A DNA stretch of 42,850 nt from a virus, in the IMG/VR virus record IMGVR_UViG_3300036393_000023, positions 1-42,850 of that record; one strand, written 5' to 3'. Shown piece after piece: positions 7,076-19,690 of the stretch. The notes beneath the pieces are model-generated. The model did no database searches. It was not told where the DNA came from and worked only from the letters and a program-made list of their open reading frames with translations. Every line of letters starts with the position of its first letter. Position 1 is the first letter of the stretch. The position numbers were made by a program, and so were the translations under genes.

Positions 7076-7449
7076 TGGATCTGCGCGACGAAGTCGAATT
7101 CCTGCGCGAGGAAAACCGGCAGCTGAAGGAACGGCTGGGGCTGACGCCAACCGAGCTCTTCTACGTCGAGGCGCGCAGTCGCCTTCAACTGAGCCCCTCG
7201 TTGGCTCGGGCATTGTCGGCGCTGATGGTGGTGCCGTTGATCAAGAAGGCGGCGCTGCTCGAAGCAATATCGCTGAATTGGGAGAGCCGCGAACTCAAGG
7301 GCGTCGATGTCGCCATTTGCAAGCTGCGAAAGGCGCTCGCGACGCACGGCATTGAGGTCGAAACCGTTTGGGGCGTCGGCTTCCGGATGGTTCCGGAAAT
7401 GCAGGCCAGAGCGCGACTGCTGCTCGATCAGCAGCAGGAGGCGGCGTGA
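7075..7449 (+). CDS. Winged-helix (OmpR/CtrA-type) DNA-binding protein
   Basis: A 124-residue protein. Residues 1-22 form a charged coiled coil (LRDEVEFLREENRQLKERLG). Residues 25-110 match the C-terminal winged helix of response regulators: LSPSLARALSALM, then GVDVAICKLRKALATHGIEV, then ETVWGVGFRM, the recognition helix and wing signature. No receiver domain is present. Similar receiver-less proteins occur in alphaproteobacterial prophages and may bind CtrA-like sites in host or phage promoters. The target is not known. It overlaps its neighbours in the early operon. Confidence 0.75.
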   Translation: MDLRDEVEFLREENRQLKERLGLTPTELFYVEARSRLQLSPSLARALSALMVVPLIKKAALLEAISLNWESRELKGVDVAICKLRKALATHGIEVETVWGVGFRMVPEMQARARLLLDQQQEAA

Positions 7450-8012
7450 TGTTCATCGACGCCTTCACCGGCGAGGAAACCGGCCCGATCACCCGGGCCA
7501 AGACCGACCGCAGCCACTTCGTGCGGATGGACCATCCGCCGCTCGACATGCTGTCGGGATGCTCGTGGCGGTTCCTGCTGCAGCTGGCGGCGCGGCGCTG
7601 GAACGTCGATGGAGAGCAGCTGACCGGCACGAGCCGCGATCAACTGGTTTGCGCGGCGCGGCACCATGCGATGTGGCTGCTGCGCACCCACACCCGGATG
7701 ACGCTGCCGAGGATCGGCAAGCTGTTCGGCGGGCGCGACCACACCACGGTGATATCGGGGATCGACGCACACATCGAGCGTGCCGCCGGTGTGCGGCCGT
7801 CGCCGTTCGTGTGGACGCATCAGGCGGTGCGCCGTTACTCGCGCCTGCTGGTGGACGGCAAGACGGTCGCCGCAGCCGACAAGGCGCTGGGGCTGGGCCT
7901 GACCGACCGCTGGCGCTGCCCCAGGCGGCGCGAGTTGATGCGGCAGGCGATGGGGCTCAGCCGGCAGCGGTTGGTGCTCGCCGCGCTGCGGCGCAAGGCG
8001 GCGCAGCAATGA
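7449..8012 (+). CDS. Stand-alone DnaA domain IV-like DNA-binding protein
   Basis: A 187-residue protein with the DnaA DNA-binding signature at residues 94-104 (GGRDHTTVISG; DHTT is the key box-contacting motif) preceded by RQ..helices (ARHHAMWLLRTHTRMTLPRIGKLF reads as the domain IV helix-turn-helix). There is no AAA+ ATPase domain. Residues 120-187 form a basic tail with a second helical segment. It is likely to bind 9-bp DnaA-box-like sites, either to compete with host DnaA or to mark the phage origin; the choice is inference. ATG 7449 overlaps the previous stop. Confidence 0.8.
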   Translation: MFIDAFTGEETGPITRAKTDRSHFVRMDHPPLDMLSGCSWRFLLQLAARRWNVDGEQLTGTSRDQLVCAARHHAMWLLRTHTRMTLPRIGKLFGGRDHTTVISGIDAHIERAAGVRPSPFVWTHQAVRRYSRLLVDGKTVAAADKALGLGLTDRWRCPRRRELMRQAMGLSRQRLVLAALRRKAAQQ

Positions 8013-8230
8013 GCGAGCCGGTGGTCATCGCGTGTGAAGTGATCGAGCCGCGGGTGCTGAGCCTGCTCGTCGTCGACAAGGCGCGGGTGACCGCGTGGCT
8101 GCCGCGCAGCGCCATCGGCTTCGAGGGCGAGGCACGGATCGGCGCGAAGCTGCGGATATCGATGCCGCGCGAACTGGCGATCGAGAAGGGGCTGATGGCC
8201 GAGGGTGAAGGGCAGGGGGCGCTGTTTTGA
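8009..8230 (+). CDS. Small unknown early protein
   Basis: A 73-residue protein (VVIACEVIEPRVLSLLVVD...AWLPRSAIGFEG). It looks like a small beta-barrel, but no family is recognised. ATG 8009 overlaps the DnaA-like gene's stop (ATGA), and its own stop overlaps the next gene's TTG start. Confidence 0.6.
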   Translation: MSEPVVIACEVIEPRVLSLLVVDKARVTAWLPRSAIGFEGEARIGAKLRISMPRELAIEKGLMAEGEGQGALF

Positions 8231-8532
8231 GCGAGTTCGATTCCGGCTTTGAGCAGGGCTCGATGGCCGCCGCCAACGCCATCTTCGCCTTCCTGCGCCG
8301 CGCCGGCCACGACCCGGCCGCAACGGCGGCGTTCGCCGCCTGGGAGAACGGCACGCTGGTCGAAGCGCCGGCTGACCCTACGGCGCTGGCGCCGACGCCG
8401 GCCCCGGCGCTGATCGCTCGGCAGCAGGGCTACACCGGCGACCAGTGTTCGATCTGCAGCTCGCTGCGGATGAAGCGCAACGGCTCATGCGCCGTCTGCG
8501 AGGAATGCGGAACCACGACGGGGTGCAGCTGA
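8227..8532 (+). CDS. Small protein with ribonucleotide-reductase-type C-terminal zinc ribbon
   Basis: A 101-residue protein. The N-terminal half is an alanine-rich helix plus a Pro/Ala linker. Residues 72-101 hold CSICSSLRMKRNGSCAVC followed by ECGTTTGCS, nearly identical in pattern to the C-terminal zinc ribbon of some ribonucleotide reductases. No reductase domain is present. It may interact with the host reductase or simply be a zinc-ribbon DNA-binding protein. A TTG start overlapping the previous stop (TTGA) is chosen; ATG at 8263 is an alternative. Confidence 0.6.
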   Translation: MSEFDSGFEQGSMAAANAIFAFLRRAGHDPAATAAFAAWENGTLVEAPADPTALAPTPAPALIARQQGYTGDQCSICSSLRMKRNGSCAVCEECGTTTGCS

Positions 8533-8558
8533 TGAACGCACAAGGAATCGAGAGATGA
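8532..8558 (+). CDS. 8-residue coupling mini-ORF before the clamp gene
   Basis: ATG 8532 shares TGATG with the stop of the zinc-ribbon gene and encodes MNAQGIER, ending in TGA that overlaps the clamp's ATG (ATGA). It probably relays ribosomes from the upstream gene to the clamp gene. No other function is implied. Confidence 0.4.
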   Translation: MNAQGIER

Positions 8559-9748
8559 ACGCGAAAGCTGAAGCAATCGAACAGTTTGCGATGATCGAGG
8601 GGCGGGTGCTGGCGGCGGCGCTGAAGCCGCTCTGCTTCGTCGTCGAACGGCGGACGACCTACCCGATCCTGAGCATGGTCAAGCTGGTGCTCAGCGGCTC
8701 CGCACTGACGGTGAGCGCGACCGACCTCGATATCGAGATCAGCACCACGCTCGATGTGAACGACAGCGCCGGCGACTGGCAGCTGTGCGTGAGCGCCGAG
8801 CTGCTGCGGGGCATTGCCAGGGTGGCCGGGCCGGCGCTGGTGCGGCTCAACAGGGTTGAGGCGCTGGTGCCGGGCAAGAAGGCGACCGATGCGCCGGTGC
8901 CGACGACGCAGTTGCACATCACTGTCGATGACGGGGCGGCGCACTATCAGATCGAGACGGTGCTCGACTCCGAGGGGTGGCCGAAATTTGCCGGCGAGCG
9001 CGGCGAGAAGATCGAGGGGTTCGGCAACGGGCAGTTCCCCGCGGCGCTGGCCCGGGTCGAGAGCGCCATATCGCGCGAGGAAACGCGCTATTACCTCAAC
9101 GGCATCTGCTGGAGCATCACCGACACCGATTGCTGGTTCGCTGCTACCGATGGCCACCGGCTGCTGAAGTTCACCTATGCGAAGGCCGAGGGCCGGACGA
9201 AGGCCTCGCGAATCATTCCGCGGAAGACGGTCGAGCTGCTGGTCAGGTTCTTCGCCGGCGCCGATGCGACGGTGTGGCAGGCCGGCGATAACAACCGGCT
9301 GGACATCGATATCGGGCGCTTCCGGGTTCGGACTCGCCTGGTCGAAGGGGAGTTTCCCGATATCGAGCGCGTCATCCCCAAGGAGCTGACCGCGGCGGTG
9401 ACGGTGTCGCGTCGGGATATCGAAGCGGGCATGTCGCGGCTGCGGGCGCTGCCGGCAGACGGGCGGTTATACGGCGGCGGCCAGAAGGTGCTGTTCCGTC
9501 CCGATGAAGATGGCGGCGGGCTCGTGCTCGAGGCGCGTCACCCGCAGATCGGCGTGGCTCGCACCAGTGTCGCGGCCAACTGGCCGGACGGCATCCCGAG
9601 CTTCGCGTTCAGCAGCGGCTATTTCGCCCAGATGCTCAAGGTCTGCGACGGTACGGTGCAGATCGGGGTGAAAGACGCGGCCGGCCCGGTGCGGATGATC
9701 GATGCGGACGACACGATGACGCGCGTCCTCATGCCGATGAAGGTCTGA
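8555..9748 (+). CDS. dnaN: Phage-encoded DNA polymerase III beta clamp homologue
   Basis: A 397-residue DnaN homologue with the three-fold clamp layout. Recognisable parts are the N-terminal segment (VLAAALKPLCFVVERRTTYPIL), TDLDIEI, the middle domain with YYLNGICWSI and FAATDGHRLLKF, and the EGEFPDIERVIP motif between domains two and three. The C-terminus ends MTRVLMPMKV, close to the canonical clamp terminus. It encircles DNA and tethers polymerase. Host clamps are about 370 residues, so this one is slightly long. With no phage polymerase in the window, it probably recruits host Pol III to phage DNA. Confidence 0.92.
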   Translation: MNAKAEAIEQFAMIEGRVLAAALKPLCFVVERRTTYPILSMVKLVLSGSALTVSATDLDIEISTTLDVNDSAGDWQLCVSAELLRGIARVAGPALVRLNRVEALVPGKKATDAPVPTTQLHITVDDGAAHYQIETVLDSEGWPKFAGERGEKIEGFGNGQFPAALARVESAISREETRYYLNGICWSITDTDCWFAATDGHRLLKFTYAKAEGRTKASRIIPRKTVELLVRFFAGADATVWQAGDNNRLDIDIGRFRVRTRLVEGEFPDIERVIPKELTAAVTVSRRDIEAGMSRLRALPADGRLYGGGQKVLFRPDEDGGGLVLEARHPQIGVARTSVAANWPDGIPSFAFSSGYFAQMLKVCDGTVQIGVKDAAGPVRMIDADDTMTRVLMPMKV

Positions 9749-9751
9749 GCG

Positions 9752-11737
9752 ATGAACGCGATCTCACCGGGGGCGTGGGACCTCGACAACCGCATGACCG
9801 TGGTGCTGTTCGCCGGCATGGGCGGCGGTTGCGACGGACTCGAGCAGGCGGGCTTCCATGTGCACCTGGCGGTGAACCACGACCCGATCGCCATCGCAGT
9901 GCACAAGTCGCGCCACCCGCACACCGAGCACATCCAGACCGATGTTTTCGAGGTTGACCCGCGCAAAGCCACCAAAGGGCGCGGCGTCCGGTTTCTGCAT
10001 GCCTCGCCGGACTGCACGCATTTCTCGGTGGCGAAGGGCTCGAAGCCGGTCAGCAAGCGTCGTCGATCGCTGGCATGGGTGATTATCCGCTGGCTCGGCC
10101 AGGTGCGACCCGAAGTGGTCACATTGGAGAATGTGCGCGAGATCACCACGTGGGGTCCGCTCATTGCCAAAAGGGACAAGGCCACCGGCCGCGTGCTTCG
10201 GCTCGACGGCAGTGTCGCCGGCAAGGGCGAGCGGGTGCCCGTTCAGGAACAGTGGCTGGTGCCGGATCCGCGCCACAAGGGGCGGATCTGGCGCGCGTTC
10301 TGCCGCCATGCTGCCGCGCTCGGCTACAACTTCGAATATCGGGTGATCAACTTCGCCAATCTCGGCGTGGCGACAATCCGCACCCGCCTGATGGGTGTAA
10401 TGCGCGCGGACGGGCTGCCGATTGCCTGGCCCGACCAGACGCATGCGGCTCGCAGCAAGGCCAAGGCGATGAAGCTGAAGCCATGGGTAGGCGCCCACAC
10501 GGCAATCGATTGGTCGCTGCCGATGAAATCGATCTTCGGACGGAAGAAGCCGCTGGCCGACGCCACGTTGCGGCGAATAGCGCGAGGCGTCATGCGCTTC
10601 GTGGTGAACTCACCAGACCCGTTCATCGTTCCGATCTGCCAGACGGGCAGCGTTACTGCCGGCCGATCGGTCCGAGAGCCACTGGCGACCATGACGACGG
10701 CCAAGGGTGGCGAGCTTGCGCTCGTGGTGCCGACACTGGCGGGCGCCGGTGGTAGGGCGGCCCAGACCGAGCCGCGTGACCTTCGGGAGCCGCTGAGCAC
10801 CACATCGACGAAAGAGGATCGCATCCTTTCGGCGGTTCATCTGGAGAAGTTCAGCGAGAACTCGGCGGGCCTCGACCCGCGCGACCCGCTCAACACGGTG
10901 ATGGCAGGCGGGCAGGGGCATGCGGTTGTCGCCGCCAGCCTCGTCGAGCTCGCGCACGGCAAAAGCGCCCGCGGTGGCAACAACCGCGAGAGCTCGCCGA
11001 GGGATCCGTTGAAGACCATTCACGCCGGCGGAGGCAACGAGGCGCTTGCCGCGGTCACTATGGTGCAGACCGGCTACGGCGAGCGCCAGGGGCAGGCTCC
11101 GCGTATCAAGGATATCGGCGCGCCTTTCGGCACCCAGGTCGCCGGCGGCGGCAAGGAAGCGCTGGTCGCGGCGTTCCTCGCCAAGCACAACACCGACGTG
11201 GTCGGCAACGACCTGCGCGAGCCTTTGTCGACGGTGACAACCGGCGGCGAGCGCGGCCAGACGCAGATTGCGCCGGTGATCGCTTCGCTACGCGGGTCCG
11301 CCAAGGGCGGGCGGTCGATAGAGGAGCCGCTGCCGACGCAGACCGCGGACGGCAACCACGAGATGCTGATCCTGCCGTTCCTGCAGACCTACTACGGCAG
11401 CGGCGACAACAACCACGACCCGCGCGACCCGCTGCACACCGTTACCGTCAACGACCGGCATGGCCTGGTGACGGTCGAGGTGAACGGGCAGACGATGGTG
11501 ATCACCGATATCTGCATGCGGATGCTCGACCCGCTGGAGGGCGCTCGGGCCCATGGGTTCGATCCGGCATCGCTACAGCGCGAGATCGAGGTCACCGATG
11601 CCAAGGGGCGAACGGTGCGCCGGAAGCCGAACAAAACCGAAATAGGGCACCTCGTTGGCAACAGCGTTCCCCCGCTGCCGGTGAAGCTGCTGGCGGAATT
11701 GAACGGTCATCGCGAGCTGATGGTGGCGGCAGAATGA
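9752..11737 (+). CDS. C5-cytosine DNA methyltransferase with repeat-built recognition region
   Basis: A 661-residue enzyme. Motif I is VVLFAGMGGGCDG (about 17-29). The catalytic loop is ASPDCTHFSVAKG with Cys88. Motif VI is LENVREI (about 123-129). Late motifs are at the end (MRMLDPLEGARAHGF and GHLVGNSVPP). Residues 308-570 insert about eight copies of a 30-40-residue unit beginning R(D/E)PL.T, between the catalytic core and motif IX, where target recognition normally lies. It methylates cytosine at C5, and no cognate nuclease is present, so it is likely an anti-restriction or epigenetic enzyme. Confidence 0.92.
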   Translation: MNAISPGAWDLDNRMTVVLFAGMGGGCDGLEQAGFHVHLAVNHDPIAIAVHKSRHPHTEHIQTDVFEVDPRKATKGRGVRFLHASPDCTHFSVAKGSKPVSKRRRSLAWVIIRWLGQVRPEVVTLENVREITTWGPLIAKRDKATGRVLRLDGSVAGKGERVPVQEQWLVPDPRHKGRIWRAFCRHAAALGYNFEYRVINFANLGVATIRTRLMGVMRADGLPIAWPDQTHAARSKAKAMKLKPWVGAHTAIDWSLPMKSIFGRKKPLADATLRRIARGVMRFVVNSPDPFIVPICQTGSVTAGRSVREPLATMTTAKGGELALVVPTLAGAGGRAAQTEPRDLREPLSTTSTKEDRILSAVHLEKFSENSAGLDPRDPLNTVMAGGQGHAVVAASLVELAHGKSARGGNNRESSPRDPLKTIHAGGGNEALAAVTMVQTGYGERQGQAPRIKDIGAPFGTQVAGGGKEALVAAFLAKHNTDVVGNDLREPLSTVTTGGERGQTQIAPVIASLRGSAKGGRSIEEPLPTQTADGNHEMLILPFLQTYYGSGDNNHDPRDPLHTVTVNDRHGLVTVEVNGQTMVITDICMRMLDPLEGARAHGFDPASLQREIEVTDAKGRTVRRKPNKTEIGHLVGNSVPPLPVKLLAELNGHRELMVAAE

Positions 11738-11913
11738 ACGACGCGACCAAGCAGACCATCCTCTACCTGCGCGAGCGCGCCAGCTTCTACGGGCTGCGCG
11801 CGAAAGAGCGGCGGGGCACGAAGGCAGATAGAGACATGGCGATCTCTCGCGCCTATCGGGAGGACGCGCGTGCACTCGAATCCGTCAAAGCCGACGATGA
11901 GGCTGCGGAATGA
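11734..11913 (+). CDS. Small helical protein between methyltransferase and primase
   Basis: A 59-residue charged helical protein (TILYLRERASFYGLRAKERR ... ALESVKADDEAAE). Both ends overlap neighbouring genes by ATGA, and third codon positions are GC-rich, so it is very probably translated. The function is unknown. Confidence 0.65.
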   Translation: MNDATKQTILYLRERASFYGLRAKERRGTKADRDMAISRAYREDARALESVKADDEAAE

Positions 11914-13121
11914 CGCTCCCCGCCAACCTTGCCGCGCTGCGCGATGAAGCGATGCGGACCAGCTGCGAGGGCTGGGCCATCCAGAAGCGCTGGCCGCTGG
12001 GGCGGGGCATCGACCGCGCAGGGCCGTGCCCGATGTGCGGCGGCACCGACCGTTTTGCCATCCACACCAAGAAGAACACCTTCAACTGCCGCGGCTGCGG
12101 CATCGCCGGCGCCGGGGTGATCGACCTGGTGATGGCGACCGAGGGCGTCGAGTTCATCGTGGCCTGCGAGATCATCACCGGGCGGAAGGCCGAGACGGAA
12201 ACCGACCCGGCGCGGGCCGAGCAGTTGCGGCGCGACGCGGAGGCGGCCGAGGCGAAGCGCGAGGCCGATGCAGCGCGCTATCGCGAGGAAGCGCGGAAGG
12301 CGGCCTATCGCGTGTGGCGGACCGGCTACCCGGCGCGCTGGTCATCGTCGATGCCGGGGCCGGTGGTGAGCTACCTGCGGCTGCGCGGGGTGGATTTCCC
12401 CGGGGTGACCGCGAAGGCGATCGGCGACCAGGTGAAGCTGCTCGAGCTCGATCGGCACCCGTGGAAGGAAAAGCAGGGCAACGTGTGGACCACGCTGCAC
12501 GAAGGGCCGGCGATGCTGGCGGCGGTGCAGCGGCCCGATGGGCACTTCGGCGCCATCCACATCACCTGGCTCGACCTCGAGCAGCCCAAGGGCAAGCTGG
12601 TGCTGCCGCCGATCGAGCAGGTCGACGGCGACGGCGTGGTGAAGACGATCGAGCGGCCGACCAAAAAGGTGCTGGGCGCCAAGAAGGGCGGCGCCATCCG
12701 GCTCTACACGCCGGAAAAGCCGCACCGCATGGTGATGGGCGAGGGGATCGAGACGACGTTGACGGCGCTGGCGCACGGCTATGAGCGCGACACGGCCTAT
12801 TGGGCCGGCGTCGACCTGCCCAACATGAGCGGGCGGGCGGCGCGCAGCGAAAGCGGCGGGCAGATCTGGGACCAGCCCGACCTCGCCGATGTCGACTGCT
12901 TCGTGCCGCCCGACTGGTGCGAGGAGCTGGTCTATCTCTGCGACAGCGACGAGGCGAGCAACCACACCGAGGAGAAGGTGATCCGCGGCCTGCGCCGCGC
13001 CCTGGCACTGCGTGAGGCGGCGCGGGCCGAGGGCAGGGACGTGCCGGCGCTACAGGTGAGCTATGTGCCGCCGCTGGGGGAAGGGCGAGATCTCAACGAT
13101 CTCGTGCGGGTGGGGGCATGA
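11910..13121 (+). CDS. DNA primase, zinc-finger and TOPRIM domains
   Basis: A 403-residue primase. The N-terminal zinc ribbon has Cys40, Cys43, Cys60 and Cys63 (CPMCGGTDRF, FNCRGCG). A charged linker (95-135) follows. The TOPRIM-like domain carries the glutamate in VMGEGIETTLTAL (about 275-288) and the acidic pair in YLCDSDEASN (about 343-352). It should lay down primers for phage replication with the helicase at 14110-15930; in P4 these functions are one polypeptide, here they are split. It is coupled to both neighbours by ATGA overlaps. Confidence 0.88.
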   Translation: MTLPANLAALRDEAMRTSCEGWAIQKRWPLGRGIDRAGPCPMCGGTDRFAIHTKKNTFNCRGCGIAGAGVIDLVMATEGVEFIVACEIITGRKAETETDPARAEQLRRDAEAAEAKREADAARYREEARKAAYRVWRTGYPARWSSSMPGPVVSYLRLRGVDFPGVTAKAIGDQVKLLELDRHPWKEKQGNVWTTLHEGPAMLAAVQRPDGHFGAIHITWLDLEQPKGKLVLPPIEQVDGDGVVKTIERPTKKVLGAKKGGAIRLYTPEKPHRMVMGEGIETTLTALAHGYERDTAYWAGVDLPNMSGRAARSESGGQIWDQPDLADVDCFVPPDWCEELVYLCDSDEASNHTEEKVIRGLRRALALREAARAEGRDVPALQVSYVPPLGEGRDLNDLVRVGA

Positions 13122-14113
13122 TCGAGATTCGAGAGGGCGATTGCCGGCAGTTGCTCAAGGCTATGCCCGACCGCTCGGTGCACTGCGTGGTGACCAGCCC
13201 GCCATACTTCGGGCTGCGCGACTACGGTGTTGAGGGGCAGATGGGCCTCGAGCCGACGCCGGCCGAGTTCGTCGCCGGCATGGTGGAGTTGTTCCGCGAC
13301 GTGCGTCGCGTGCTGCGCGATGACGGTACGCTTTGGTTGAACCTTGGCGACAGCTACGCAAATGACGGGAAATGGGGAGGGCACACCGGCGGTAAGCACG
13401 TCAGAGCGCTGCATGCGTCGCCGATCGGCCGCAACAAGCGCTACACCGGGTTGAAGCCCAAAGACCTGATTGGAATACCTTGGCGCGTCGCTTTTGCCCT
13501 CCAGGAGGACGGGTGGTTCCTGCGACAGGATATCGTTTGGTCGAAGCCTAACCCGATGCCGGAAAGCGTGACCGACCGCTGCACCAAGGCACACGAGTAC
13601 ATTTTCCTGATGTCGAAGGCGCCGAGGTATTTCTTCGACGCCGCGGCCATCCAGGAGCCGGTGTCGCCTAACACCCACGCCCGGTTGGCGCAGGACGTCG
13701 AGGCCCAGCGTGGCAGCGATCGCGTTCCCGGCAAGACCAATGGCCCGATGAAGGCGGTGGCCCGCAAGGTCGCGAGCGAGGGGGAGGGGATCAAGAGCAA
13801 CGCCTCATTCTACAACGCGACGGCGTTCCGGGTAGATGAGCGAAACAAACGGTCCGTCTGGACTGTCGCGACCCAGCCTTTCAAGGAAGCGCACTTTGCG
13901 ACCTTCCCGCCGGCGCTGATCGAGCCCTGCATTCTGGCCGGATGCCCTGAAGGTGGCACGGTGCTCGACCCGTTCGGCGGCGCGGGCACAACGGGCCTTG
14001 TGGCCGACCGGCTGCAGCGTAACGCCATCCTCTGTGAGTTGAACCCCGAGTACGCCGAAATTGCTCGCCGCCGCATCCGTGGTGATGCCGGGCTGTTCGG
14101 TGATGTCGCATGA
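13118..14113 (+). CDS. Beta-class DNA methyltransferase (N4-cytosine or N6-adenine)
   Basis: A 331-residue enzyme with motif IV TSPPYFGLRDYG at residues 26-37 and motif I near the C-terminus (DPFGGAGTTGLVADR, about 283-297), followed by CELNPEYAEIARRR. This IV-before-I order defines the beta class. TSPPY is found in N4-cytosine and many N6-adenine enzymes, so the modified base cannot be decided. No restriction partner is encoded. It lies between primase and helicase genes with 4-base overlaps on both sides. Confidence 0.9.
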   Translation: MIEIREGDCRQLLKAMPDRSVHCVVTSPPYFGLRDYGVEGQMGLEPTPAEFVAGMVELFRDVRRVLRDDGTLWLNLGDSYANDGKWGGHTGGKHVRALHASPIGRNKRYTGLKPKDLIGIPWRVAFALQEDGWFLRQDIVWSKPNPMPESVTDRCTKAHEYIFLMSKAPRYFFDAAAIQEPVSPNTHARLAQDVEAQRGSDRVPGKTNGPMKAVARKVASEGEGIKSNASFYNATAFRVDERNKRSVWTVATQPFKEAHFATFPPALIEPCILAGCPEGGTVLDPFGGAGTTGLVADRLQRNAILCELNPEYAEIARRRIRGDAGLFGDVA

Positions 14114-15930
14114 CCGATTCCTCCGACGACGACACCCCCAGCGATCGCGTCAAGAAGGCCATGGCCGGCAAGAAGCCGGTGACCGAGGCGCCGTTCAAGG
14201 TGATCGAGGGTGGCAAGGGCAAGACCCGGAAGCCGCGCGCCAAGAAGGCCGGCACAGGGGAGCCGCCGGCGCATGAGCACGAGCCCGATGGGCCGCAGGA
14301 CGGCGCCGAGCTCCCGCCCGATGGCGTCGGGCCCGAGGAGATGGAAAAGGCACGGCATTGCCGTGACCTCGACCAGAACGACCGCGACAACGGCCGCCGG
14401 CTGCTGATCTGGTTCGGCGACAACCTGGCTTACGTCACCGGCATGGGCTGGCTGACATGGCGCGAGACGCACTGGCAGCGCGACGAGGGCGAGCTGGGCG
14501 CGCGGCTACTGGCGCAGAACCTCGTCGACAAGATCAAGCTCGAGGCGATCGTGATCGAGGCCTCGCCGGCGCAGCAGCGGCTGCTCGATGCGGCGGCCGC
14601 GGCGCGGAAGAAGCCGGCGAACGGGCAGACGCCAGAGGACATCGCGCTGCAGCTGCGCGCCGGCAAAATCCTCGAGGCGCTGTCGAAGCGTCGATCGGAG
14701 CGGCGGAAATTCGCCGTTGGCTCGGGCAACTCGGGCAAGACCGAGGCGATGCTGAAGCAGGCCGCCAGCCTCAAATCGATCGAAGCGACGGCGCTCGATG
14801 CCGACCACAAGCAGTTCAACCTGCTCAACGGCACGCTGCGCTTCGTGAAGGTGGAGAACCCCGATTCCGACCCGGCGGCGCCGACCTTCCATTGGGAGGC
14901 GAAGTTTGAGGCGCATAATCGCACGGACATGCTGACCAAGCGCGCTGCCGTCGCCTATGACGCCGCGGCGACCTGCCCGGAGTTCGATCGGTTCCTGCTG
15001 ACGACGCAGCCCGACCAGGTGATGCGGCTGTTCCTGCAGGTGTTCCACGCCTATGCGCTGCTGCTCGGCGGCAATGACGAGCAGCGCCTGGTGTTCCATT
15101 TCGGCACCGGGGCCAACGGCAAGTCGGCCTTCCTCGAGGCGCTCGGCCGGCTGGCCGACATGTATCGCGCCGTGGTGTCGCCCGACACAATCACCGGCGA
15201 GCAGCAGCGCGACGGCAGCAAGGCCAACAGTGACATCGCGCGGCTCCACTCGAGCCGGTTCGTCACCATCGAAGAGTTGCCGCGCGGCACGCCGCTCAAG
15301 GAAAACCTGATCAAGGCGCTGACCGGCGGCACCAGGATGGTGGCGCGGTTCCTGCAGAAGGAAATCTTCGAGTTCGACCCGGTGTTCACCGCGGTGCTCT
15401 CGGGCAACGACATGCCGAACGTTTCGGGCACCGATTACGGCATCTGGCGCCGGCTGCTGCTGGTGCACTGGGGCGTGACCATCCCCGAGGCCGAGCGGCT
15501 GCCGTTCGGCGTGCTGATGGCGAAGTTCGACGCGGAACGGGCCGGGATCCTCAACTGGCTGATATCAGGCGCGCTGCGCTACCTCAACGAAGGGTTGCAG
15601 CCGTTCATCCCCGCCTCGGTGACGGCCTTCACCGAGGACTATCGCGAGGAACGCGACCATGTCGGCGTGTTCGTCAGCAGCTGCGTGATCATGGATCCCG
15701 ATCGCTCGGTGGGCGCCGGCGACATGTTCAAGGCCTATACCGACTGGTGCGAGGCCAACGGGCTGAAGCCCTGGACACAGACGGCCTTCGGCACCCGGCT
15801 GGGCGCGCTGGGCATCAAGAAGGATCGCGGCCGGCTGGTGACCTACCAGGGCGTGAAGCTGGGCGATGTGCCCACGCGCTTCGACCCCAAGACAGTGCCG
15901 CCTCGGCACGATCCGGGCTGGAGCCCCTGA
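14110..15930 (+). CDS. P4/D5-type superfamily 3 helicase
   Basis: A 606-residue replicative helicase. Residues 1-80 are a charged disordered lead. The D5_N-like domain spans about 95-300. The SF3 ATPase has Walker A FGTGANGKS (about 330-338), Walker B FVTIEELP (about 386-393), and sensor motif FTAVLSGNDMPNVSG. A C-terminal DNA-binding winged helix (AYTDWCEANGLKPWTQTAFG) follows. It would unwind the phage origin together with the separate primase. It is the last replication gene and is directly followed by the 9-bp repeat array, which supports origin recognition nearby. Confidence 0.92.
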   Translation: MTDSSDDDTPSDRVKKAMAGKKPVTEAPFKVIEGGKGKTRKPRAKKAGTGEPPAHEHEPDGPQDGAELPPDGVGPEEMEKARHCRDLDQNDRDNGRRLLIWFGDNLAYVTGMGWLTWRETHWQRDEGELGARLLAQNLVDKIKLEAIVIEASPAQQRLLDAAAAARKKPANGQTPEDIALQLRAGKILEALSKRRSERRKFAVGSGNSGKTEAMLKQAASLKSIEATALDADHKQFNLLNGTLRFVKVENPDSDPAAPTFHWEAKFEAHNRTDMLTKRAAVAYDAAATCPEFDRFLLTTQPDQVMRLFLQVFHAYALLLGGNDEQRLVFHFGTGANGKSAFLEALGRLADMYRAVVSPDTITGEQQRDGSKANSDIARLHSSRFVTIEELPRGTPLKENLIKALTGGTRMVARFLQKEIFEFDPVFTAVLSGNDMPNVSGTDYGIWRRLLLVHWGVTIPEAERLPFGVLMAKFDAERAGILNWLISGALRYLNEGLQPFIPASVTAFTEDYREERDHVGVFVSSCVIMDPDRSVGAGDMFKAYTDWCEANGLKPWTQTAFGTRLGALGIKKDRGRLVTYQGVKLGDVPTRFDPKTVPPRHDPGWSP

Positions 15931-15993
15931 GTCTCCAGCAACGCTTTTGCGTTCGCCCCCAACCCCCTCTGAGTGAAGAGAAACGGAAGTCGC

Positions 15994-16306
15994 AACTGTC
16001 GCCCCGCGCAAGCGCGGGCCGCAGACAGTTGCGAGAGTTAAGCGAGGGGCGGAATGCAACTGTCGCAACGGTGTTTCAAGCGATATTTCAACGGCTTAGC
16101 GCGATTGTGCGACAGTTGCGACAGTCTCGCGCGCGTATACTGCTGGAGGGGTGCGGGTGGTGCGCTTCTATCGGCGGGCGGCGATGATCGGATTTGGCGC
16201 TTATGACACGGGGGAACTGTCGCAACCCTCGCAACTATCGCAAGCCCTTGCCGCACCATCGCTTTCGCCGACCGACAACTGTCGCTCAACTATCGCTAAC
16301 CCTCGC
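15994..16306. repeat. Array of 9-bp repeats AACNNTCGC, candidate phage replication origin
   Basis: The 399-base gap after the helicase holds no convincing gene. It contains eight direct copies of AACNNTCGC at 15994, 16058, 16215, 16224, 16233, 16277, 16288 and 16298, and at least two inverted full copies (16031-16039, 16109-16117) plus near-copies at 16022 and 16118. Copies at 16215-16241 are three exact tandem units with no spacer; the trio at 16277-16306 uses the same three variants (TG, TA, CC) in a different order. A less GC-rich stretch (16067-16108) lies between convergent copies. Iterons beside a helicase gene suggest an origin. A short GC hairpin (CCCGCGC/GCGCGGG) is at 16003-16018. 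Confidence 0.7.
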
Positions 16307-17512: not shown

Positions 17513-17986
17513 ATGGACGTGGAATTTGACCTGCTCGGCGACCCCATTCCGGAGGGGTTTGGCCGTCGTGGTCGGCCGCCGCATACGCCGACCGACGAAA
17601 AGCGCAGGATTGTCATACAGTTACTGGCGTTCGGTAAGTCGGTGGAGTTCATCTCGGCCGCTCTCAGCATCACGCCGCCCACGCTGCGAAAGAATTATTT
17701 TCGGGAGCTGCGGGCGCGTGAGGAAGCCCGGGCGCGCGTCGAGGGTCGCCTGCTTTCTTCGCTGATGGCTGAGGCTGAGGCGGGCAACGTCAGCGCGATC
17801 GATAAGTACTTCAAGCGCCTCGAGCGGCACGACATGGCGCAGCTCGCCGCGATGGCAGCCAACCGGCAGCCGAGCGATGAGGATCAGCGGAAGAAGGTCG
17901 GCAAGAAGGAAGCGCGTCGCCTGGCAGCTGGTGATGTGGCCGGCATCTATGCGCCGCGGCCGGCGCCTGGGTCGAAGCCGAACTAG
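17513..17986 (+). CDS. terS: Terminase small subunit
   Basis: A 157-residue protein directly before terL. Residues 20-75 form a helix-turn-helix (GRPPHTPTDEKRRIVIQLLA ... FISAALSITPPTLRKNYF), followed by an oligomerisation helix (ARARVEGRLLSSLMAEAEAG) and a basic tail. It recognises the packaging site and loads the large subunit. The 75-base gap between the HNH gene and terS has a G-run and a T-run and is the likely place for cos or pac by analogy with HK97, although no exact cos can be defined. Confidence 0.85.
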   Translation: MDVEFDLLGDPIPEGFGRRGRPPHTPTDEKRRIVIQLLAFGKSVEFISAALSITPPTLRKNYFRELRAREEARARVEGRLLSSLMAEAEAGNVSAIDKYFKRLERHDMAQLAAMAANRQPSDEDQRKKVGKKEARRLAAGDVAGIYAPRPAPGSKPN

Positions 17987-19690
17987 ATGTTCGCTGCGCC
18001 GGAGTGGTCAACAGCCTGCCCCGACTGGCAGGAACGGATCGTCGCGCGACAGTCGCTGATCCCGTTCGAGCCGCTGTTCCCGAACCAGGCGCACGATGCG
18101 CTGGCTGTGTTTAAGTCGCTGCGCATCGTCGATGCGCCGGGACAGCCGACCTTTGGCGAAGCCTGCGAGCCCTGGGTGTTCGAGTTCGTTGGCGCCATTT
18201 TCGGCGCGTACGATGCGAATGCCGGCAAGCAGCTGATCCGGGAGTTCTTCCTGCTGATCAGCAAGAAGAACTCGAAGTCGACGATCGCCGCCGGGATCAT
18301 GGTCACGGCGCTGATTATCAACTGGCGTCACTATTCGGAGCTGCTGATCCTCGCCCCCACCCTCGAGGTGGCGAACAACAGCTTCAAGCCCGCCGCCGCG
18401 ATGGTGCGCGCCGATCCGGTGCTGGCCGAGCTGCTTCACATTCAGGACCACCTGAAGCAGATCACGCATCGCGTCACCAACGCGACGCTGACGGTCGTGG
18501 CCGCCGAGAGCGCCACGGTCGGCGGCAAGAAGGGCGCATTCGTCCTCATCGACGAGCTGTGGCTGTTCGGCGAGCGGGCCAACGCCGAGGCGATGCTGCA
18601 GGAAGCCGTCGGCGGTCAGGTGTCCCGCGACGAAGGGTTCGTCATCTTCCTCTCGACCCAGAGCGACAAGCCGCCGGCCGGGGTGTTCAAGGCCAAGCTG
18701 GACTATGCCCGCGCGGTGCGCGACGGCCAGATCATCGATCCGTCGTTCCTCGCGGTGATCTTCGAATTCCCGGCGGCCATGGTCGCCAGCAAGGCTTACC
18801 TGAAGCCGGAACATTTCTACGTCACCAACCCCAACCTGGGCCGCTCGGTCAGCGCTGATTGGCTGTTGCGTGAGCTGACCAAGGCGCTGGCGGGCGATAC
18901 CGGGAAGCAGACGTTTCTCGCTAAGCACCTAAACATTGAGATCACCCTCGGCCTCGCCGGGGATCGATGGGCCGGCGCCGACTACTGGGAAGCCGCGGTC
19001 AGTGTGGTGCGCACCCTCGAAGAGCTGATCGAGGTGTGCGAGGTCGCAGTGGTTGGCCTCGATGGTGGTGGTCTCGACGATCTGCTTGGCGCCGGCGTCA
19101 TCGGGCGCCATCGCATAACCAAGGAATGGATCCTGTGGTGCCACGCCTGGGCGCAGCTAGACGTACTGGAGCGGCGCAAGGAAATTGCGCCGCGGCTGCA
19201 TGACTTCGCGCGTGCCGGTGAGGTTACGATCTGCGAGCGCCCCACGCAGGACATCGAAGAAATCGCATATCTCTGCGAGCGACTGGCTGATGCTCAATTG
19301 CTGCCAGACGAGGCGGCCGTAGGGCTCGACCCTCAGGCAGTGGCCGCACTGGTCGATGAGCTTGCCGGCCGCAACATCACGGCCGAGCAGATGGTCGCAG
19401 TGTCGCAGGGTTTCCGCCTGGCCGGCGCTATCTGGGGCACTGAGCGCAAGCTGAAAGACGGCACGCTCAAACATTGCGGGCAGGCACTGATGAGCTGGTG
19501 CGTCGGCAATGCCAAGGTCGAGCAACGAGGGAATGCCGTGCTGATTACCAAGCAGGTAGCGGGTAAGGCGAAAATCGACCCGCTGATTGCCGCCTTCAAT
19601 GCTGTCGCCCTGATGAGCCGCAACCCGGTGGCCGCTGCAGGCGAAGGCAGTCTTGACGACTACATCGCCTCGCTCGCGGGTGCCTCATGA
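17987..19690 (+). CDS. terL: Terminase large subunit
   Basis: A 567-residue HK97-type packaging motor. The ATPase has the deviant Walker A typical of this family ([15 protein letters not shown], about 87-101), the adenine-binding region [14 protein letters not shown], and Walker [13 protein letters not shown] (about 184-195). The C-terminal nuclease has an acidic start at [14 protein letters not shown] (about 350-363) and [14 protein letters not shown]. It cuts concatemers and pumps DNA into the prohead. It starts immediately after the terS stop and overlaps portal by 4 bases. Confidence 0.95.

Follow-up and report, generated by a model that had tools for sequence, protein, structure and literature searches.

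An array of 9-bp repeats directly 3′ of the helicase gene in a virus contig is, as judged from sequence comparison, most likely the replication origin of the phage. The window analyzed here is the whole contig of 42,850 bp. It is highly probable that the D5/SF3-type helicase encoded upstream serves as its own initiator at this origin, wherein two facing groups of helicase would be brought to the repeats by an RFX-type winged helix. Comparison among phages shows the array, its conservation beside the helicase gene, its independence of the terminase genes, and the covariation of its repeat unit with the wing of the helicase. An earlier note on this DNA had put the array forward as a candidate phage origin, and that proposal is strengthened by conserved facing arrays in relatives, by an annotated origin in phage A2, by precedents from SaPI/PICI and SCCmec elements, and by the covariation.

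The genes upstream of the array are oriented in the same direction and encode a DnaA domain IV protein, a beta clamp, a C5 methylase, a primase, an N4/N6 methylase, and the D5_N/DUF5906 helicase (Table 1). Downstream lie genes for a phrog_9306 protein (function unknown), an HNH protein (16904), and the terminase (17513–19690). Both DNA methyltransferase genes are interleaved with the replication genes. The stand-alone DnaA domain IV protein is encoded directly before the beta-clamp homologue (window 7368–9748), and proteins of its kind are rare in the phages covered here, with three weak matches in isolated-phage records.

Table 1. Coordinates of features in the window and, where a record or locus is named, in related phages.
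Feature	Position	Strand	Basis or remarks
DnaA domain IV protein, not conserved with the array	7368..8012	+	Bac_DnaA_C, E 1.9e-18
DNA polymerase III beta-clamp homologue, replication module	8555..9748	+	
DNA methyltransferase, C5 type	9752-11737		
Primase, presumed helicase partner	11910..13121	+	phrog_510; zinc ribbon and Toprim-like matches
DNA methyltransferase, N4/N6 type	13118-14113		
D5_N/DUF5906 (SF3-type) helicase, 606 aa, predicted initiator	14110..15930	+	D5_N E 2.8e-20, DUF5906 E 1.7e-6
Helicase C-terminal part, RFX-type winged helix (Pox_D5)	15586..15930	+	holds wing residue R575
Hairpin from inverted unit pair, GC stem between	15990..16034	+	-32 kcal/mol, z -5.5
Iteron array, candidate phage replication origin	15994..16306	both	ten exact AACNNTCGC units and near-copies
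Less GC-rich stretch between facing units, candidate melting region	~16051..16110		53-55% AT vs ~35% overall
Tandem minus pair, left arm of conserved core	16109..16126	-	AACTGTCGC, near-copy GACTGTCGC at 16118
Core between facing tandem arms	16132..16160	+	CGCGTATA, then G-rich run GGAGGGGTGCGGGTGG
Perfect tandem trio TG-CC-TA, right arm of core	16215..16241	+	exact units
Second trio TG-TA-CC	16277..16306	+	exact units, 2- and 1-bp spacers
Second winged-helix protein	L003:12992-13933, L014:10056-10946, L015:12032-13129, L098:5902-6657, L042:4578-5318		
NusG-like protein after array, replacing the phrog_9306 protein of the window	L004:12117-12971, L006:12076-12921		judged by eye
Recent exchange	L005:1-3053 and L006:9944-12995		helicase, array, and NusG-like gene shared
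26-nt 3′ cohesive overhang, RcapNL record	JQ066768.1 40464-40489 and 1-26		annotated

As the earlier note described, the array occupies a long gene-free gap after the helicase gene. This gap extends 399 bp from the helicase stop (15930) to the next start (16330); the gap at 11737–11910 is 172 bp. Within the array are ten exact matches to AACNNTCGC, eight on the forward strand (starts at 15994, 16058, 16215, 16224, 16233, 16277, 16288, and 16298) and two on the reverse strand (16031 and 16109), along with near-copies. Five further matches are scattered through the remaining 42.5 kb. When the 400-bp region was shuffled 5000 times under a first-order Markov model, the count averaged 0.11 and never exceeded 2. 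A test that presumes no pattern gave the same picture, with 118 identical strand-symmetric 7-mer pairs versus a shuffle mean of 18.8 and maximum of 53 (z 13.4). The ten copies in both orientations and the two trios of the same variants, one perfectly tandem and the other spaced, are as first described.

Read across the gap, the order of elements is the hairpin, the less GC-rich stretch, the minus pair, the core, the plus trio, and the second plus trio. The hairpin recurs with locus-specific unit sequences in the related loci L006, L008, and L014 (z -5.6, -5.2, and -3.9, respectively). A less GC-rich stretch among facing copies, also part of the earlier description, is present as well. The two facing iteron sets are clear, but the AT content of this stretch reaches only 53 to 55%, and a G-rich core separates the tandem arms. 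The plan of the core, wherein CGCGTATA is followed by a G-rich run, is kept in phages with different iterons and in part in phage RcapNL. Cumulative GC skew along the window exhibits no switch at the array.

The earlier note had proposed looking for repeat conservation in relatives, and facing arrays of ~9-bp units are indeed found in the same slot in many phages. They lie 3′ of the helicase gene in relatives with 52 to 60% helicase identity and also at 37 to 42%, and the unit varies by lineage: many carry AACCCTCGC, L008 and L013 have units with TCAC endings, and L003 has a GCTGTCC-type unit. Isolated phages with distant helicases (RcapNL, Pthi1, RR1-A, Pan4, AmM-1, and Yong805-1) have other ~9-bp units in this slot, and further arrays occur there in RcRhea, phi105, Keshu (with an 8-bp step), and the archaeal virus Blf4; the hosts of these viruses include other bacteria and an archaeon. 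The slots of SWEP2 and ChewyVIII contain no clear array. Among 177 loci, comprising 160 fetched by helicase profile plus those collected earlier, 100 carry four or more copies of a single AACNN-plus-suffix unit, and in 109 no other window of the locus is as repetitive as the slot. That the slot does not rank first in ~40% of loci is due in part to genes inserted between helicase and array.

A search for three perfect tandem units returned 21 contigs, seven of them in this group (L020, L021, L023, L027, L030, L034, and L036). Most of the others contain short tandem runs, with no helicase match in the fetched DNA. A DNA-level search of isolated phages for helicase plus array yielded only short helicase matches, to cyanophages. 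In the literature searched, no paper describing origins of these phages was found.

Within the helicase, the predicted reader of the repeats is its C-terminal domain. The Pox_D5 C-terminal domain is present in each of the 27 members, and among solved structures its fold is most similar to that of the RFX1 DNA-binding domain in complex with the X-box (Z 10.0, rmsd 2.0 over 69 residues). A scan of helicase alignment columns revealed that the strongest association with unit type is that of R575, a residue of this domain that predicted structures place in the turn of the wing. RFX1 recognizes DNA in the major groove through its wing (PMC4333399, PMC8998557). A wing arginine that tracks a G fits this mode of recognition, with a predicted base contact.

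The association was evaluated with 74 non-redundant loci that have confident arrays, using a wing alignment anchored on the conserved aromatic residue Y579; automatic alignment of distant wings misplaced R575 and gave a weaker correlation. R575 occurs together with G at base 8 of the unit in 38 loci and never without it, whereas G8 occurs without R575 in 8 loci and neither is present in 28. The phi coefficient is 0.80; outside the C-terminal domain, no column exceeds 0.60. Because 8 of the 46 G8 loci lack R575, the code is not strict. On a tree built from the ATPase part of the helicase alone, 7 of 10 base-8 changes fall on the same branch, and in the same direction, as a change at R575, where random placement by branch length gives a mean of 1.8 (P ~2e-5 for 7). 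Since R575 was picked from the same data that scored it, its rank against all columns is the fair measure, and the best of 1085 other residue traits reached 3 coincident changes. A broader and noisier set of 124 loci gave corresponding counts of 53, 4, 15, and 52 and a tree P of 0.0015. In related phages, helicase and repeats thus change together over evolution, which suggests the C-terminal tail of the helicase, and not a DnaA-like protein, as the reader of the repeats.

The DnaA domain IV protein had been advanced in the earlier note as the partner of the array, such that it would bind the units as a matched initiator. Its gene does reside in the same module, on the same strand, and encodes a clear DnaA_C domain, and phage AmM-1 has an equivalent DnaA domain just upstream of its helicase. 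However, the pairing is unsupported because just 2 of the 25 array-group records (several of which are fragments) contain Bac_DnaA_C and because canonical boxes are lacking nearby. Specifically, a scan of the window for the DnaA box (TTATNCACA) returned 3 one-mismatch matches versus 6.6 expected, none of them near the array. Although the host-type GRDHTTV motif is retained in the protein, the window has no canonical DnaA-box cluster, and tblastn found no match to the protein in related loci L003 to L017. The 9-bp unit does equal a DnaA box in length, but the proposed likeness goes no further than length, and it is R575 of the helicase that tracks the unit. We therefore regard a matched DnaA pair as exceedingly improbable. 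Host DnaA boxes or the host replisome may be the targets of this protein.

A different assignment for the array is a cos or pac packaging site whose units are bound by the small terminase, given that HNH, TerS, and TerL genes lie within 2 kb after it. The RcapNL record (JQ066768.1) places a 26-nt cohesive end inside the array region, flanked by array units, although PMC8601537 lists RcapNL as circularly permuted, in conflict with that record. Loci L005 and L006 separate the array from packaging: helicase, array, and next gene share 98.2% DNA identity over 3053 bp, after which the HNH, TerS, and TerL genes are non-homologous. The array is shared while the terminases are unrelated, and thus it goes with the helicase. 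The ends of RcRhea DNA are defined and carry 13-base 5′ overhangs (PMC8601537), and the ends of its record lie ~1.4 kb away from the tandem repeats. The arrays of Keshu, A2, and phi105 are found beside the helicase gene and kilobases away from either end of the record. The covariation of unit sequence with the helicase likewise argues against packaging, and a cos or pac site appears quite unlikely from these comparisons.

The position of the array between the replication and packaging modules would also suit an operator or promoter that controls the late operon and is recognized by the helicase or a Bro-N protein with the same winged helix. Between helicase and array, some relatives carry a gene for a Bro-N-plus-winged-helix protein, and a NusG-like gene follows the array in L004 to L006. 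Such Bro-N paralogues are nevertheless present in few loci, a scan of the array region for sigma-70-type promoters returned no match (host promoters may differ), and the covariation partner of the array is the replicative helicase. Transcriptional control as the main role of the array accordingly has a low probability, whereas a regulatory role added to that of an origin is possible.

A second protein with the RFX-type winged helix of the helicase is encoded downstream of the helicase in five loci, and its N-terminus appears Bro-N-like by eye in at least L014, L015, and L042. Its wing residue matches that of the neighboring helicase in L003, L014/L015, and L098 (Q, R, and N, respectively) and differs in L042. 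This second protein may read the same iterons as the helicase. One can envision the helicase–origin pairs of these phages as a large system of diversifying recognition, wherein RFX wing residues set the iteron sequence and give rise to numerous mutually exclusive replicons, with the Bro-N proteins exerting control over replication through these iterons too, but we hold this idea tentatively and consider it somewhat doubtful.

On sequence grounds, the array of the window fits a known kind of origin, represented by SaPI/PICI elements, Cch2 of SCCmec, and phage A2. In SaPI/PICI elements the origin directly follows rep on its 3′ side, and its two iteron sets enclose an AT-rich stretch (PMC6092414). 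As in the rep-ori units of SaPI5 (Rep 7ola) and EcCICFT073, the window has a predicted initiator helicase with a C-terminal DNA-binding domain and an origin candidate directly 3′, with two sets of short iterons that may flank a melting stretch. The helicase matches the SaPI primase-Rep 7ola by profile (E 5e-8). Unlike these satellites, the window represents a full tailed phage with 9-bp AACNNTCGC units and a separate primase gene, its core is GC-rich, and the unit is diversified between lineages.

For Cch2, a D5-family protein, binding assays revealed an interaction of the isolated C-terminal domain with direct repeats that lie 3′ of the Cch2 gene (PMC7581432). The helicase of the window shares the family and the position of the repeats, and here binding is predicted. 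Cch2 has only three 5-nt iterons (AAGTG) and lacks facing arrays on the scale seen in the window. In the record of Lactobacillus phage A2, a rep_origin is annotated in the slot 3′ of a homologous primase-helicase. The original study of that origin (Moscoso and Suarez 2000) reportedly, by its title, describes use of the A2 replication origin. The CCTCCCGT repeats of A2 also occur in both orientations directly 3′ of the gene; in contrast to the window, the unit is different, primase and helicase are in one protein, and the host is Gram-positive.

The alpha protein of phage P4 is likewise a helicase with a C-terminal winged-helix origin-binding domain that acts at iterons (ori and crr), but P4 has other units, at two separate sites. 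The P4 alpha structure was not returned as a match for the window helicase, and its origin-binding domain is absent from the sequence and fold matches of the helicase, although kinship is still possible. ORF904 of pRN1 is similar in that an SF3 helicase has a C-terminal winged helix and an origin directly downstream of its gene. The pRN1 origin is a 100-nt stem-loop that lacks iterons (PMC4234260), whereas the origin candidate of the window consists of iterons.

We propose that the C-terminal RFX-type winged helix of the helicase binds the 9-bp units, with the GC end of the unit recognized by the wing such that R575 would face base 8 or the complement of that base. On each of the two arms a group of helicase subunits would then assemble, the groups facing each other, and these would melt the stretch between or beside them. 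The helicase would load as hexamers, after which the phage primase would prime synthesis and the phage beta clamp together with the host polymerase would complete replication.

What appears to be new here is the helicase–iteron covariation, the evidence for a base–residue code, and the spread of this arrangement among complete phages. Most temperate-phage origins outside the lambda-like models are unmapped, and looking for facing ~9-bp repeats on the 3′ side of a D5-type helicase gene offers a sequence rule that locates probable origins in many phages. R575 with base 8 provides a specific and testable recognition pair, and an arrangement of this known kind is seen in complete phages of several phyla. 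Orthogonal helicase–origin pairs would bear on replicon compatibility and would offer small replicons for alphaproteobacteria.
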